Positions 48,752 through 55,767 of a DNA stretch of 63,848 nucleotides are shown one piece after another; position 1 is the first letter of the stretch; every line of letters begins with the position of its first letter. A program made the position numbers and the translations under genes. Location: positions 1 through 63,848 of the forward strand of contig CALFNN010000041.1 of assembly GCA_937902925.1 (NCBI GenBank), in the 5' to 3' direction. A model generated the notes under the pieces. It was not told the DNA's origin. It searched no databases and saw only the letters and a list, made by a program, of their open reading frames with translations. This DNA comes from an uncultured Opitutaceae bacterium (GTDB lineage Bacteria; Verrucomicrobiota; Verrucomicrobiia; Opitutales; Opitutaceae).

Positions 48752-49651
48752 ATGGCGCGAAAAATCTGTTTCATCAACTACAAGGGCGGTGTCGGCAAGA
48801 CGTCGCTCATCGTCAATACCGCGGCGGCGCTGGCCAAGCTGGGCAAGCGGGTGTTGCTGTTCGACTTCGACACGCAGTCCAACGCGAGCATCTGGCTGCT
48901 CCGGCTCGATCGGTGGAACAAGATCAACGCCAACGGTGACGGGGCCATTTATTCGATCTTCGAGCCCGGGCGCGCGAAGGTGAAGGAGCTGGTGATCAAG
49001 GATGTCGTCGAGGGCAAGGCGGGCGAAAAACTACTCCCCGGCCTCGACCTCGTGCCGACGACCTTCAACCTCGTCGACCTCGAGAACGAATACAACGGCG
49101 ACCCCAAGCGCCCGCATTATCTCGTGTTCTACGAACAGCTCGCCGCGATCGAGGCAAACTACGACTTCATCCTCTTCGACTGCCCGCCGAACATCCTGCG
49201 CGCCTCGCAGTGCGGCGTGTTCGCCTCGAACGAAATGTATGTGCCGGTGAATCCCGACGCGCTCAGCCTCATCGGCTTCACCCTGCTGGTCGAAAAACTC
49301 TTCAAGTTCCACCAGCTCTCCGCGAGTTTCCGCACCGCCGCGATGGGCGCGCCCGCCCAGGTGCAGGGCCTGATCTTCAATTCGATCAAGGCCGGCGTCG
49401 ACATCGAGGTGCCGAAGATGCGTCTGCAGCTCCGCCTGAACCAGTTTCGCACGGCGAAACGCGCCGCGCCGACGGCCAAGATTTTCGACACGCAAATCCG
49501 CGACGCGATGGTCGTCCGTCGCGCCGTCGCGCTGGGGCTGCCCGTCGCGCTCGTGGGCTCGGAGGCCGCGGAAGCCGGCCCGGGCGGCGACAATGTGATC
49601 AACGACTATCGCAAACTCGCCGGAGAAATCATCCAGCACGGCGGGAATTGA
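48752..49651 (+). CDS. ParA/MinD-type ATPase
   Basis: A 299-residue partition-type ATPase that would dimerise with ATP and bind DNA or a membrane to position cargo. The deviant Walker A is YKGGVGKTSL at the N-terminus, with the ParA-specific second Lys. Switch I follows (FDFDTQSNASIWLL), and the Walker B region is YDFILFDCPPNI. Residues about 110-130 (LENEYNGDPKRPHYLVFYEQLAAIE) and the C-terminal third are longer than in minimal ParA. No parB gene or parS-like repeat follows, so it is more likely an orphan ParA for protein or organelle positioning than the chromosomal ParA. It is the first gene of three rightward genes. Confidence 0.9.
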   Translation: MARKICFINYKGGVGKTSLIVNTAAALAKLGKRVLLFDFDTQSNASIWLLRLDRWNKINANGDGAIYSIFEPGRAKVKELVIKDVVEGKAGEKLLPGLDLVPTTFNLVDLENEYNGDPKRPHYLVFYEQLAAIEANYDFILFDCPPNILRASQCGVFASNEMYVPVNPDALSLIGFTLLVEKLFKFHQLSASFRTAAMGAPAQVQGLIFNSIKAGVDIEVPKMRLQLRLNQFRTAKRAAPTAKIFDTQIRDAMVVRRAVALGLPVALVGSEAAEAGPGGDNVINDYRKLAGEIIQHGGN

Positions 49652-49667
49652 GCCGCCTTTTCGCCGC

Positions 49668-50510
49668 ATGAAATCCACCGCCAAAGACTGGGACGAAACC
49701 CGCACTGCGTTCGCCACCTCGATCATGGTGGACACGACGCTGAGCAGCCTGGCGCAAAACCTCGACGCGCCCGACTGGCCGGTCAAGGGCAAGGAGGAGA
49801 CGCCCGCGAAATACATCGACCTGAGTTTCGAGGAAGTCACGGAGCTGCTGCAGCTCAAGGGCCAGAAGCCCGACCGCATCGACCAGTTGATCTCGATCTT
49901 GAAGGAGACCCTCGCGTTCGACAGCCCGTTCGGCGAGATGGTCGCGCAGGCGGAGGCGGCTTCCGAGCGCGACAACCCGCTGCTCAAGAACCTGGCGAAG
50001 CTCGGCATTCCGGAAAATTTCCCCATCGCGCTGACCGGGCTCGGCGCCGACACGGTCGAGTTCTGCAAGTTGGAAAAACTTGCCACGCTCGGCGAGTTTG
50101 CGGTCTTCGCGCAGGGGATGTCGCAAAACGTGATCGTCGGGGGCGATTTCAAGAAACTGCTGAATGCACTGTCGCATGTCGACGAGGGCGCGCTGGCCGA
50201 AGTGCTCCCGTTCCGCCGCGGGGCGAAGGGCCTGCACCTGGCCGAGGCGGTGGCGCAGGCGGCGCGGGCGAAGGACCCGGTCGCGCACACCGAACTCGCG
50301 ACAACATGGTTCAAGGACGATCTCGCCGCGCTCGAGCGGGACATCGCCGCGGGCGGCTCGCTGTCGCGGTATTTTGTCCAGCTCGGCGATGCGGCGGTCG
50401 AGGCGCGGGCGGCGGAATTGCTGCGTCCGCACCTGCGGCTTCCGGCCGGTGTCTCGGGGTCCGGGGAGAAGAAAAAGGGCGGCCTGTTTTCACGGCTGTT
50501 CAAGAGGTAG
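49668..50510 (+). CDS. Unrecognised ParA-associated protein
   Basis: I do not recognise this 280-residue protein. It starts 16 bases after parA and is surely in the same operon. It is mainly helical, with no signal and no membrane segment: SFEEVTELLQLKGQKPDRIDQLISILKETLAF, ERDNPLLKNLAKLGIPENFPIALTG, KLEKLATLGEFAVFAQGM, HLAEAVAQAARAKDPVAHTELATTWFKDDLAALERDI. The extreme C-terminus (GEKKKGGLFSRLFKR) is basic and amphipathic, a pattern that could contact membrane or nucleic acid. A role as ParA partner or cargo adaptor is inference from position. Confidence 0.8.
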   Translation: MKSTAKDWDETRTAFATSIMVDTTLSSLAQNLDAPDWPVKGKEETPAKYIDLSFEEVTELLQLKGQKPDRIDQLISILKETLAFDSPFGEMVAQAEAASERDNPLLKNLAKLGIPENFPIALTGLGADTVEFCKLEKLATLGEFAVFAQGMSQNVIVGGDFKKLLNALSHVDEGALAEVLPFRRGAKGLHLAEAVAQAARAKDPVAHTELATTWFKDDLAALERDIAAGGSLSRYFVQLGDAAVEARAAELLRPHLRLPAGVSGSGEKKKGGLFSRLFKR

Positions 50511-50543
50511 CCCGGGTGACCGTCGCTGCACCCGCGCCTCCGC

Positions 50544-51248
50544 ATGGCTGAGCCTCCTTCCCAGATCCGGTTTCCCGGCGCCCGCGGTCCCGGGGGCGGG
50601 GGAGCCAGCCTGTCGCTGCCGCGCCGGCGGACAGCCACGCGATCGCCGTTCGAAGTCTCGGAGGTTTCCGCGGCCGCGCGCGAGTCGATCAAGGCCATCG
50701 TGTCCGCCACCCGCGCCCCGTTTGCCGGCCCCGGGACAGGGGGAACGTCGCCGCAGGTCGAGCTCGAGCGATCGCTGCGCCAGCTCGAGCTCACCCTGGC
50801 CGAGCGCGAACGGGCGATCGCCGACATGGAAGCGAGACTGGCCGATCGCGAGCGGGATCTGGCGGAGATGGAGGCGCTGTTGCTTGCCCGCGAGAAACTG
50901 ATCGCGGCGTCCCGCCGGCCGGCGCCGCCGCAGGCGGCCATTTCTCCGGAGGAAAAGGCCGCGTTGGAACAATTGCGCGCAGAACTCGAGCGGCAGGAGG
51001 CCAGCGTGAAGGAAGCCAAGCAGGCCCTGCGCGACCGGGAGCAATTCCTCGACGACAGTGAAACCAAGTTGTTCGAAAAGGTGCAGGCCCAGCAGGAGAA
51101 GGAGATCGAGCTGGAGCAAAAGGACGAGGATCTCCGGGCGCGGGAGCGCCGGCTGCGCGAGCGGGAGGCGGCCGGCGACCCGGCCGCCGCGGCGGTGCTG
51201 AAGTCCGAGGACGCCGCGGCCAGGAAGAATGCCGAGCTCAACGAGTAG
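50544..51248 (+). CDS. Coiled-coil protein of the ParA cluster
   Basis: A 234-residue protein without a recognised family. Residues 1-75 are Pro/Gly/Ser/Arg-rich and likely disordered (IRFPGARGPGGGGASLSLPRRR). Residues about 75-215 form a nearly continuous, highly charged coiled coil (LERSLRQLELTLAERERAIADMEARLADRERDLAEMEALL, then LEQLRAELERQEASVKEAKQALRDREQFL and KEIELEQKDEDLRARERRLRERE). The tail is Ala/Glu/Lys-rich. It starts 33 bases after the preceding gene, which makes it a probable third member of the operon. A basic disordered head plus coiled coil is the design of several ParA partners, such as McdB-type proteins, but no homology is claimed. Confidence 0.75.
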   Translation: MAEPPSQIRFPGARGPGGGGASLSLPRRRTATRSPFEVSEVSAAARESIKAIVSATRAPFAGPGTGGTSPQVELERSLRQLELTLAERERAIADMEARLADRERDLAEMEALLLAREKLIAASRRPAPPQAAISPEEKAALEQLRAELERQEASVKEAKQALRDREQFLDDSETKLFEKVQAQQEKEIELEQKDEDLRARERRLREREAAGDPAAAAVLKSEDAAARKNAELNE

Positions 51249-52788: not shown

Positions 52789-54039
52789 GTGAACGAGAAG
52801 AAACCGCTCTGGCCCGTCGCGTCGCTGCTGGTCCTCACGGGGTTCAACTTGTTCGATTACCTCGACCGGACGATCCTTGCCTCGGTGCTGCCAAGGGTCC
52901 GGGAGGACCTCGGCCTCACTTATCAGCAGGGTGGCAGCCTGACGACGGCGTTCATGCTCGGCTATTTTTTAACGTCGCCGATCTTCGGCTATCTGGGCGA
53001 CCGGGTGCCGCGACGCTGGCTGATCACGGCTGGCGTGGCGGTCTGGAGTCTTGGGACGCTCCTGTCGGGCAAGGCGCCCGGTTTCGGCACGCTCCTGGCT
53101 TTTCGCGCGCTCGTGGGCTTTGGCGAGGCGAGTTTCGGCACCATCAGCCCGAGCTGGATCGCCGACCTGTTTCCGACCGCGCGGCGCAACAACGCGATCA
53201 CGATCTTTTATTTTGCGATCCCGGTCGGTTCGGCGATCGGCTACGTGCTCGGTGGATGGATCGCGGTGCATTATGGCTGGCGCGCGGCGTTCGGGTTTGC
53301 GGGATTTGCGGGACTGGCGCTCGCCGGCGCGCTGCTGCTCCTGCGGGAGCCACCGCGGGGCGCGAGTGACCGCGTGGCCGTCGCCGCGCATGGCACCGTG
53401 GTCGGCTGGAGCGTCTATCGCGAGCTGGCGCGCTTTCCGCGCTACGTGCTCGTGGTCCTCGGCTACACGGCCCAGACGTTCGCGATGGGTGGATTTCAAA
53501 ACTGGGCGCCGACGTTCCTCTGCGAAGTCCACGGGATGAAGCTCGACGCCGCCGATCTATTTTTCGGCGGCTCGCTGGCGGCGACGGGCCTCGTCGCGAC
53601 GCTGGCGGGCGGATTCACGGCGACGTGGTGGCAGCGCCGGACGGGGATGGGCTATGCGTGGGTGCTCGCGCTGAGCGCCGCCGCCGCGGCGCCCGTGGCC
53701 TTTGCGGCGTTTTCCGTGACGGACCTGAATTTCGCGCGGACGCTGCTCGTGCTGGCGATGTTCCTGCTCTTTCTTTCCACCGGGCCGGTGAACACCCTCA
53801 TCCTTGAAACGGTGCCGATCCACATGCGGGCCAGCTCGATGGCGGCGTCGATTTTCGTCATCCACTTGTTTGGCGACCTGTGGTCGCCGCAGTTCGTCGG
53901 CTATCTCTCCGATCGTTGGGGCGGCCTGCAGCGTGCGGTGCTATGGGTGCTCCCCATCGCCCTGGTCGTGAGCGCGTTTTTTTGGTCGTGGCTCGTCTGG
54001 TGGACCAAACGGGAGAAGGCGGCGGCCGCCTCAGCCTGA
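52789..54039 (+). CDS. Major facilitator superfamily transporter (spinster-like)
   Basis: A 416-residue inner-membrane transporter with 12 predicted hydrophobic segments. The start region FNLFDYLDRTILASVLPRVREDLGLTYQQGG, the MFS loop motif GYLGDRVPRRWLI and RALVGFGEASFGTISPSWIADLFP are typical of the spinster/Spns branch, whose members carry lipids or organic acids. The substrate cannot be read from sequence. The start is GTG 52789 (GTGAACGAG); there is no ATG nearby. Its last nine bases overlap the convergent ispH gene. Confidence 0.88.
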   Translation: MNEKKPLWPVASLLVLTGFNLFDYLDRTILASVLPRVREDLGLTYQQGGSLTTAFMLGYFLTSPIFGYLGDRVPRRWLITAGVAVWSLGTLLSGKAPGFGTLLAFRALVGFGEASFGTISPSWIADLFPTARRNNAITIFYFAIPVGSAIGYVLGGWIAVHYGWRAAFGFAGFAGLALAGALLLLREPPRGASDRVAVAAHGTVVGWSVYRELARFPRYVLVVLGYTAQTFAMGGFQNWAPTFLCEVHGMKLDAADLFFGGSLAATGLVATLAGGFTATWWQRRTGMGYAWVLALSAAAAAPVAFAAFSVTDLNFARTLLVLAMFLLFLSTGPVNTLILETVPIHMRASSMAASIFVIHLFGDLWSPQFVGYLSDRWGGLQRAVLWVLPIALVVSAFFWSWLVWWTKREKAAAASA

Positions 54040-55767
54040 CTGCCCGAGGTCCCGCAGGACTTCGTCCACGCTGCGCAGGGCGGCGCCGGGGAAGAATGAA
54101 TTTATCCGCGTGATCGCCTGCTGGATGATCCCATCCGGACACGACGCGCCACCGGTGATGAGCACGCGTTTCGGCGGCCCGTCGGGGACCTGCCGACCGG
54201 GCCAGAGCGCCCGCAACTCCGTGCGCCCCGCGCCGGCGCCGACGTAGAGATAATGCTCGACCGCCTCGTGCGACCGAATGCTGCGCTCGGACTGGATGAA
54301 GTAGGCGCGGGCGCCGAGCGTCTGCTCGCACAGCCGGAAGAGCTGGTAGGTGTTGGAGGAATTTTTCCCCCCGATCACGAATGCCGCGTCGAGCGGTTCC
54401 GTCAGGGCGCGGCTCAGCGCGTCCTGGTTGACCTGGGTGGCATAGCAGAGCGTGTCGCGCCGGGCGCTGCCGCCCACGCGGCCGTCGTCGCCGAATTTCG
54501 CCCGGTAGACCTCGCGGAGGTGCTCGATGATGGCGACGGTCTCGTTCATCAGCAGCGTCGTCTGGTTGACAACCGCCACGCGGTCGAGATGGCGGGTGGC
54601 GTCGAAACCCGGCGTGTGACGGCCGCCGAAGAGGTCGTGGAACCGGGCATCGCGCCCGGCATCGGTGCTCGCGACGATCTCGCCGAGCTGGTGGGCCTCG
54701 TCGAGGTTGCGGACGATCACGGCGTGCGCGTGCCGCCGGGTGTTGGAAAACGTCGCCTTCGTCTCCTCATGCTCGCGCTTGCCGTGGATGATGACGGTGT
54801 AGCCCTCGCGACCGTAGGCGCGGGCGGCCTTCCAGACCTTCTCGACGAGCATGCACGTGGCGTCGTATTGGCAGACGGCGATGCCCTTGCGGACGAGACG
54901 GCGCTTGTCCTCGTCGGTGGCGCCGAACGCCGGGATGATCACGATGTCGTCGGGCGTGAGCGTGTCCCACAGGAGCGGCGCCCCGGGCGCATCGGTCGCC
55001 GGCCGGCCATCCGTCGTGTAGGCGACGCTCTTGTCGGTCTGCAGGTAACGCAGGCCGCGGCGCAGGAGATCCTCGTTGACGAATGGATTGTGGATCAGCT
55101 CGGAGAGCATGAACACCCGGCGGCCGGGGTTCTCCGCGAGGGTTTCATAGGCGCGCTCGATGGCGTTTTTCACCCCGAGGCAGAAACCGAAATGACTCGG
55201 GATGACGTAGCGCACCGCCCCGAAATCGAGCGTGATCGGCGCCGCGGCGGAACGCTCGTGCTGGCGGGCAAGCGCCTTGATCGCGGTGCACAGCCGGGAC
55301 TGGTAAAGCGCGCCGGCGGCCGCGTCCTGGGCGTAGATCGCCGCATTCCGTTCCAGCGCGGGGCGAAACTTGTAGATGAAATCGCTCTCGCCGAGATGCA
55401 GGTAGGGAATCTCGACGAGGTGCGGCTCGAGCCCAACAAGCAGCGCGGCGAGCGAGGGCGCGAGCCCGGCGGGATTGGCCGCGAGCTCGTCGATGGATTG
55501 GAAGCCGATCTCGGAATCCGCCGGCGTTCCGGCGACCTGCGCGAGACAGACCCGGTAGCTCCGCCCGCCCGCCGTGGTGGAAAACTGCTCGGCGGGCGGC
55601 GTGTGCTGGGCAAATGCCGACTCGAGCCGCGCGGTGGCCATCGCGAGATCGCTGCCCGTGAAGGCCAGCCCGGCCTTGGATCCGAGGCGCCGCACGGCGA
55701 GCTGGTTGCTCGCGTTGAACGCGAGGACGGCGAAAAGCTCCGCGGAAGTGGCTGGCGGCACGGACAT
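54031..55767 (-). CDS. ispH: 4-hydroxy-3-methylbut-2-enyl diphosphate reductase with long N-terminal extension
   Basis: IspH carries out the last step of the MEP isoprenoid pathway, reducing HMBPP to IPP and DMAPP with an iron-sulfur cluster. The 578-residue protein has a complete IspH core from about residue 190: GFCLGV (Cys196), SELIHNPFV, PAFGATDED, YDATCMLVEKVW (Cys305), IIHGKREHEETKAT, NQTTLLMNET, DTLCYATQ (Cys441), IGGKNSSNTYQL and ITGGASCPD. PAFGA and HGKxxHEET are features of the plant/cyanobacterial IspH type rather than the E. coli type. Residues 1-185 are an extension with no motif I know. HK and a small gene lie upstream on the same strand, 57 bases away. Confidence 0.93.
   Translation of the reverse strand: MSVPPATSAELFAVLAFNASNQLAVRRLGSKAGLAFTGSDLAMATARLESAFAQHTPPAEQFSTTAGGRSYRVCLAQVAGTPADSEIGFQSIDELAANPAGLAPSLAALLVGLEPHLVEIPYLHLGESDFIYKFRPALERNAAIYAQDAAAGALYQSRLCTAIKALARQHERSAAAPITLDFGAVRYVIPSHFGFCLGVKNAIERAYETLAENPGRRVFMLSELIHNPFVNEDLLRRGLRYLQTDKSVAYTTDGRPATDAPGAPLLWDTLTPDDIVIIPAFGATDEDKRRLVRKGIAVCQYDATCMLVEKVWKAARAYGREGYTVIIHGKREHEETKATFSNTRRHAHAVIVRNLDEAHQLGEIVASTDAGRDARFHDLFGGRHTPGFDATRHLDRVAVVNQTTLLMNETVAIIEHLREVYRAKFGDDGRVGGSARRDTLCYATQVNQDALSRALTEPLDAAFVIGGKNSSNTYQLFRLCEQTLGARAYFIQSERSIRSHEAVEHYLYVGAGAGRTELRALWPGRQVPDGPPKRVLITGGASCPDGIIQQAITRINSFFPGAALRSVDEVLRDLGQSG

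Follow-up and report, generated by a model that had tools for sequence, protein, structure and literature searches.

Many ATPases of the ParA/MinD family are orphans whose partner is not known (extract of PMC10241942); the partner proteins characteristically activate the ATPase with a short peptide, positively charged and located at or close to the N-terminus (extracts of PMC13170346, PMC10241942 and PMC12204374). Of the described systems, the one closest in layout to the locus reported here is PomX/PomY/PomZ, which positions the division site in Myxococcus xanthus (extract of PMC13170346). Our locus lies in a stretch of 63,848 nucleotides, the window (contig CALFNN010000041.1 of assembly GCA_937902925.1, positions 1-63,848, forward strand), from an uncultured Opitutaceae bacterium. 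Here an orphan ParA-type ATPase (ParA) is paired with strongly conserved candidate partners outside known families, which we call P2 and P3. Searches among open-licence PMC papers, judged by title and opening of the abstract, brought up none on this group of ParA proteins, which does not prove that none has been published.

The likeness to PomXYZ is in composition: a ParA-type ATPase with two candidate partners, one of which (P3) has a basic head and a probable coiled coil that may correspond to the short basic N-terminal peptide and coiled coil of PomX. By adjacency only, the trio shares with PomXYZ the placing of two partner genes beside one ParA-type ATPase. P2 appears to differ, with no HEAT or winged-helix match found and a membrane-anchor-like tail; furthermore, the phylum is another. 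McdA/McdB, which positions carboxysomes, also pairs a ParA-family ATPase with an adjacently encoded protein whose N-terminus is basic, but has a single partner where the present locus has two. ParABS shares the ATPase family, and the nearest profile scanned is that of a phage/plasmid ParA (PHROG 164); however, P2 and P3 match no ParB model, the window holds no parS-like site, and the Soj-like ParA and lone ParB of this genome lie elsewhere. MinD, of MinCDE, belongs to the same ATPase superfamily and binds the membrane via a C-terminal amphipathic helix (extract of PMC8155659), whereas in the present locus it is the partner P2, not the ATPase, that carries a tail-like sequence. In addition, a search for MinC (PF03775), positive in 6 of 14 as a control, found it in 0 of 61 family genomes.

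The sequences are best read as encoding a ParA positioning system that is specific to this lineage, has new partners and most resembles PomXYZ in its layout. That the locus encodes an ATP-driven, ParA-type intracellular positioning (or assembly) system we give a probability of about one half. A first-pass annotation of the window had proposed a ParA-driven positioning or assembly module with new partners: the conserved gene unit and the novelty of the partners stand, while the positioning role is something we infer. The features of the locus are as follows.

48752..49651, + strand: ParA-type ATPase, 299 amino acids (open reading frame (ORF) call, motifs, Pfam AAA_31, PHROG 164)
49668..50510, + strand: P2, all-helical protein of 280 amino acids, directly after the ParA gene (ORF, alignments, AlphaFold2)
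49971..50453, + strand: predicted C-terminal helical domain of P2, residues 102-262 (AlphaFold2)
50454..50507, + strand: low-confidence linker and conserved aromatic/basic C-terminal tail of P2, a possible membrane anchor (model confidence, alignment)
50544..51248, + strand: P3, likely coiled-coil protein, 234 amino acids (ORF, alignment, linkage)
50544..50648, + strand: basic Pro/Gly/Arg-rich head of P3 (LSLPRRR), candidate ATPase-activating peptide (alignment, charge)
50757..51167, + strand: charged helical stretch of P3, likely coiled coil, residues 72-208 (invariant residues, weak SMC similarity)
51231..51248, + strand: C-terminal tag of P3 (ELNE in the window, DEFxE-like in relatives), including the stop codon (alignment)

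The ORF call reproduced the three reading frames, their coordinates and their spacings as first annotated: the genes are co-directional, with gaps of 16 bp (ParA-P2) and 33 bp (P2-P3). A codon-usage gene caller preferred these ORFs over the long antisense ORFs of the GC-rich window. The ratio of nonsynonymous to synonymous substitution rates (dN/dS) against four relatives was 0.08-0.18 for ParA, 0.13-0.21 for P2 and 0.15-0.18 for P3; for the outer-membrane protein encoded downstream (P4), against three relatives, it was 0.30-0.40. ParA, P2 and P3 are real genes under purifying selection.

The genes travel together. A GTDB scan with P2 gave 155 relatives, of which 80 were kept as named loci (titled Opitutaceae, Opitutae, Opitutia, Verrucomicrobia(iia), Verrucomicrobiota, Opitutus, Cephaloticoccus or Ca. 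Synoicihabitans palmerolidicus). ParA, P2 and P3 are contiguous in all 20 of the first neighborhoods, which were chosen for holding P2 (the gene caller split ParA in a few). ParA and P2 both occur in 77 of the 80 named loci and in every one of the 77 are no more than 80 bp apart (with overlap of up to 67); P3 is found in 76 of the 80, and lies within 150 bp of P2 in 75 of these. A cruder linkage count from ORF starts gave 71/74 and 74/77 testable loci. The exceptions are two loci lacking ParA where P2 begins at the contig end (L194, L230), one where P2 runs into the contig end (L225), and three in which P3 is missing (L178, near a contig end) or was not found (L216 and L220).

Beyond the family of the window (Opitutaceae, f1), four other families of its order (f2, f4, f5 and f6) carry the genes. 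In 13 of their 15 loci ParA and P2 lie side by side; the two remaining loci (L144 and L145) are one ParA copy and one P2 copy of a single genome (G304), both kept and ∼560 kb apart. The P3 profile matches in seven of the 15 loci, all from f4 or f5. The constant core is thus ParA and P2, with P3 in three of the five families (f1, f4 and f5). Since the flanking genes, as judged by eye, differ from family to family, the ParA-P2 link is not mere local synteny. The first-pass annotation had taken the trio to be a unit with uncharacterized partners, and had named kinship of the partners with known families and lack of conservation among relatives as outcomes that would count against it. No family scored over its cut-off in the profile searches of P2 and P3, and the trio is conserved (20/20; 76/80 with P3); the correction needed is that the constant element is the pair, no P3 having been found beside it in f2 and f6.

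In the samples searched, ParA and P2 are restricted to one order. Within the window's family the ParA clade occurs in 99 of 150 genomes (E≤1e-60) and P2 in 88 (72 of the 120 of good quality). Of a sample of 337 genomes from across the phylum, 35 contained ParA (E≤1e-50) and 33 contained P2 (E≤1e-5), every one of them within the order: 24 and 22, respectively, in the window's family and 11 each in the other families. Presence of ParA looks all-or-none: among 36 genomes with neither ParA clade the best ParA match is at most 53 bits (two pass E≤1e-12), while three positives run alongside scored 306 to 598 bits. In genus g45, contig C34 of G098 holds copies of ParA and P2 that both have in-frame stops, and two other genomes of the genus (G044, G075) show neither gene; unless the stops are assembly errors, the pair may be decaying together. 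Another genome (G097) has two ParA-P2 copies (L070, L071); at one of them P3 is broken up around another gene, and the other has no P3 match nearby.

P2, the constant partner, belongs to a new, all-helical protein family as judged from its sequence and predicted structure. As first annotated, it is 280 residues long with a basic end, KKKGGLFSRLFKR. The window copy has no family over the Pfam or NCBIfam cut-off, none fitted among PHROG, and no match among plasmid sequences; its relatives gave weak scattered matches only, in Pfam scans (19 and 24 rows) and in other libraries. In alignments of the 19 and 24 rows, P2 has an N-terminal segment in which W8 is invariant and R12 nearly so, followed by a long helix and then a C-terminal domain. 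AlphaFold2 modeled the full-length monomer with a predicted local distance difference test (pLDDT) score of 86 and a predicted template modeling (pTM) score of 0.59, and residues 102-262 with values of 94 and 0.87 (24 sequences). Foldseek returned no match at E≤0.001 for either the whole protein or the C-terminal domain, and the best VIA scores were Z 3.1 and 3.5, values that by the tool's own notes mean little (the best match of the C-terminal domain is CarH, Z 3.5, 62 residues, 3.5 Å). These look-ups are weak evidence and do not establish a new fold.

Several candidate kinships of P2 gained no solid support. An armadillo/HEAT fold was hinted at by designed armadillo repeats (E 0.01) with the first profile, a match that disappeared when 24 aligned rows of the C-terminal domain were used; no HEAT family was listed in the Pfam scans of the 19 and 24 rows, and there was no solid fold match. 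T2SSF (PF00482) matches the window copy with 11.8 bits against a cut-off of 25.2 over ∼50 residues (13.8 bits for its domain taken alone), and at E≤0.1 matches 7/19 and 4/24 rows (best 4e-4); this we consider chance, as we do a match of one row to baeRF_family10 (4e-4).

Following a variable linker (pLDDT is below 50 at residues 263-275 and 278-280), P2 ends in an aromatic and basic, GxFxRLFGR-like tail, a pattern kept in 75 of 79 relatives and seen in most f1 rows, in f4 and f5 and in the f2a copy. E. coli MinD ends in a very similar sequence. In most rows, however, the last nine residues of P2 have a hydrophobic moment not clearly greater than that of shuffled sequences, so the tail no more than suggests a membrane anchor.

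P3 likewise has no Pfam or NCBIfam family over the cut-off. Its layout is a Pro/Gly/Arg-rich head with an LxLPRRR-like motif, a charged helical stretch in which R88, E89, R165, E166, F168, Q183 and Q184, among others, are invariant, and a DEFxE-like end (61 of 76 relatives). Of its first description the Pro/Gly/Arg-rich basic head holds as stated; the coiled coil is to be called likely, because what speaks for it is the charged, repetitive sequence and weak SMC matches (residues 73-209). The first 45 residues have a median net charge of +3 (minimum -3) among the 76 relatives, and the strict head motif is present in 53. Of ten rows lacking it that were inspected, all but L156 keep a basic run. 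By analogy, the head fits the description of ParA/MinD ATPase activators, and is a candidate activating peptide.

The ATPase itself was correctly recognized at first from KGGVGKTS: the deviant Walker A motif NYKGGVGKTS, with its signature lysine, DFDTQSN and ILFDCPP are all intact, and Pfam AAA_31 matches at 5.5e-34. With KGGxGK[ST] and a ParA domain, its sequence places it in the ParA branch of ParA/MinD ATPases. Among the libraries scanned, the best profile match is to the PHROG 164 ParA-like partition protein (1.8e-39, residues 1-295); the closest solved structures are Soj proteins (2e-15), plasmid ParAs share ∼31% identity across 99% of the length, and NCBIfam equivalogs match far under their cut-offs. 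Mean column identity in the ParA alignment is 80% (18 rows, one frame-shifted at the N-terminus), and conserved basic residues are present. No amphipathic C-terminal tail is evident, the protein ending GEIIQHGGN. In an unrooted tree 44 rows of the window's ParA group split from four other ParA-like proteins with a support of 90/80, slightly under the tree tool's star; the four include the Soj-like ParA of the window's genome.

That Soj-like ParA is on contig C7 (L237) and the ParB on contig C36; TIGR00180 has one match in the genome, on another contig and not beside the trio. The absence of ParB and parS nearby, claimed at the outset, holds: no ParB adjoins the trio, and no 16-mer with up to three mismatches to the parS motif occurs in the window. 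In none of the 15 ParB loci of the family that were read do the 13-18 kb retrieved contain an ORF that has a ParA-type P-loop. In these loci (L236, L239-L252) ParB follows a LysM-like gene, often near fmt- and secG-like genes (named by eye). A second small ParA-like ATPase (KGGAGKTT, 194 amino acids) is found at L238:5989-7253 (G000, contig C37), followed by a 224-residue protein with a basic N-terminus; by eye the setting looks like a biosynthetic cluster with thioesterase- and phosphopantetheinyl-transferase-like genes.

Partners appear to vary among lineages. Thirteen of the 99 family genomes with the ParA clade carry a sister clade (11 tree rows, support 100/100), and no P2 or P3 match was found in the sister-clade neighborhoods read (L067 left out). 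A divergently transcribed gene adjoins the sister-clade ParA in all 11 loci (L059-L069); the first pattern recognized ten of them, and L062 departs from it by one residue. The encoded protein, unrelated to P3, likewise has a basic N-terminus, conserved at R17, R18 and R20 in a ten-row alignment; its middle is long, acidic and probably disordered, and it ends in LLD(S/N)YFK (LLDSYFKGL-like); the three tested have no Pfam family. L255 also shows a sister-clade ParA with the divergent neighbor.

A different row of genes occurs in f2 and f6 (L139, L141, L143 and L148, of G186, G194, G304 and G268): a membrane protein, then a Ser/Thr kinase-like protein (in L141, the one tested, the Pkinase match is 3e-31), a 235-residue protein, ParA and a P2 relative, which in the three f2 copies lacks the tail. 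It is possible that this row is a phospho-regulated version of the ParA system. The 235-residue RKFKV protein, of no family, occurs in 8 of 74 genomes, each time within ∼0.4 kb of ParA; limited to f2, f5 and f6, it was rejected as a general component and is a lineage-specific part at most.

The cargo was sought in a panel of 69 genomes: 34 with ParA and P2, 26 without a match, at the thresholds applied, to either ParA clade or to P2, and nine of the sister clade. In that order, a microcompartment shell protein (PF00936, E≤1e-5) matched in 21, 10 and 7, FliF in 18, 12 and 9, and CheW in 22, 11 and 9. The locus therein departs from McdA/McdB (no shell match in 13/34 ParA-P2 genomes), from flagellar positioning by FlhG (no FliF in 16/34) and from array positioning by ParC/ParP (no CheW in 12/34). 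All three are without a match in four ParA-P2 genomes that are 99-100% complete (G036, G070, G074 and G268); those cargoes are therefore not obligate, and the general cargo cannot be a flagellum, a CheW-based array or a microcompartment in all carriers. Several textbook cargoes are in this way ruled out as the general one. As to a positive assignment, the profile of the three singles out no one cargo for ParA and P2, and genome size is a confounder.

How might such a system work? An ATP-bound ParA dimer would sit on the nucleoid; ATP hydrolysis and release of ParA would be triggered by the basic P3 head, perhaps together with the N-terminal segment of P2 (R12). P3 would self-assemble through its coiled coil, and P2 would connect the assembly to the cargo, perhaps at the inner membrane via its C-terminal tail. 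Possible cargoes are the division site and other envelope structures. A bolder version, which we regard as doubtful, is an undescribed system in which nucleoid-bound ParA has two activators, P2 is a new membrane-anchored fold linking nucleoid to envelope, the division site or an envelope structure is placed without MinC, and partners are swapped between lineages (P2 with P3, P2 with a kinase and one more protein, or a single disordered protein).

Opitutaceae-family bacteria divide by FtsZ, and no MinC was found in the family. It is conceivable, if unlikely, that the locus places the septum in the manner of PomXYZ, with ParA as PomZ, P3 as PomX, and P2 in a PomY-like role, as a second activator that connects to FtsZ or the membrane. 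The shared three-part layout, including the short positive N-terminal peptide on one partner (extract of PMC13170346), favors this, as do the absence of MinC from the 61 family genomes and the need for a cargo shared even by cells in which no flagella, CheW or microcompartments were detected. However, the look-ups by sequence and fold, themselves weak, found no link of P2 to HEAT repeats; 26 of the 69 panel genomes match neither ParA clade, nor P2, at those thresholds and yet must divide, and the 36 negatives searched again hold no ParA match above 53 bits; by eye, no division gene was recognized beside the loci. Since carriers and non-carriers alike are without MinC, the system cannot be a universal Min replacement. 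ATPases of the BcsQ or TadZ kind control the assembly of envelope machines, and P2, held at the membrane by its tail, might serve a secretion, pilus or polysaccharide-synthesis apparatus whose place or time of assembly ParA sets. The conserved tail, the weak T2SSF matches and the outer-membrane protein gene often found downstream (48/73 loci) point this way, but the T2SSF match in the window is far under the cut-off, short and without fold support, no secretion or pilus gene was recognized by eye across families (no search aimed at such families was made), and the outer-membrane protein is fast-evolving and missing from many loci. We consider this role improbable.

The full-length match of ParA to PHROG 164 and its identity to plasmid ParAs would be expected of a partition system domesticated from a mobile element and still acting on DNA; yet P2 has neither a plasmid match nor a DNA-binding family, the window has no parS-like repeat, inheritance is within one order and the neighborhoods look chromosomal by eye, all of which makes such an origin very unlikely. 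We give equally little credence to a regulatory, non-spatial module with ParA as an ATP switch in signaling. Its evidence is the four f2/f6 loci with a kinase-like gene and a membrane protein (kinase domain shown for L141) and a receiver-domain-like gene, recognized by eye, upstream in 7 of 20 f1 loci; but only two families show the kinase link, and the receiver gene does not occur at all loci.

Against the favored reading, a ParA-type positioning system with new partners, stand several observations. In f2 and f6 no P3 was found next to the ParA-P2 pair. Many family genomes are without P2 (present in the 88 of 150 given above), which means that P2 is dispensable. The P2 model is of a monomer only, the tail moments are mostly not distinct from those of shuffles, and 23 of the 76 P3 rows lack the strict head motif. 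Lastly, all nine sister-clade panel genomes have FliF and CheW, and seven have the microcompartment shell, so for the sister clade such cargoes stay possible.

Other candidates and neighbors were noted. PADLOC matches to defense systems (ParA-PDC-M28B, 2e-7, ∼40 residues; P3-LmuB, 0.002) look like P-loop and coiled-coil background. The outer-membrane protein P4, whose barrel the first-pass annotation thought might be involved, was rejected as a core part: it is near P2 in just the 48 of 73 testable loci and evolves faster than the trio, and is probably not part of the system. The small receiver-domain-like gene lies upstream of ParA on the other strand in L044, L047, L050, L052, L055, L056 and L058, not in the window. 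Downstream of the module in many family loci there recurs a 578-residue protein, at 54031-55767 on the - strand of the window, which we take to be IspH-like.

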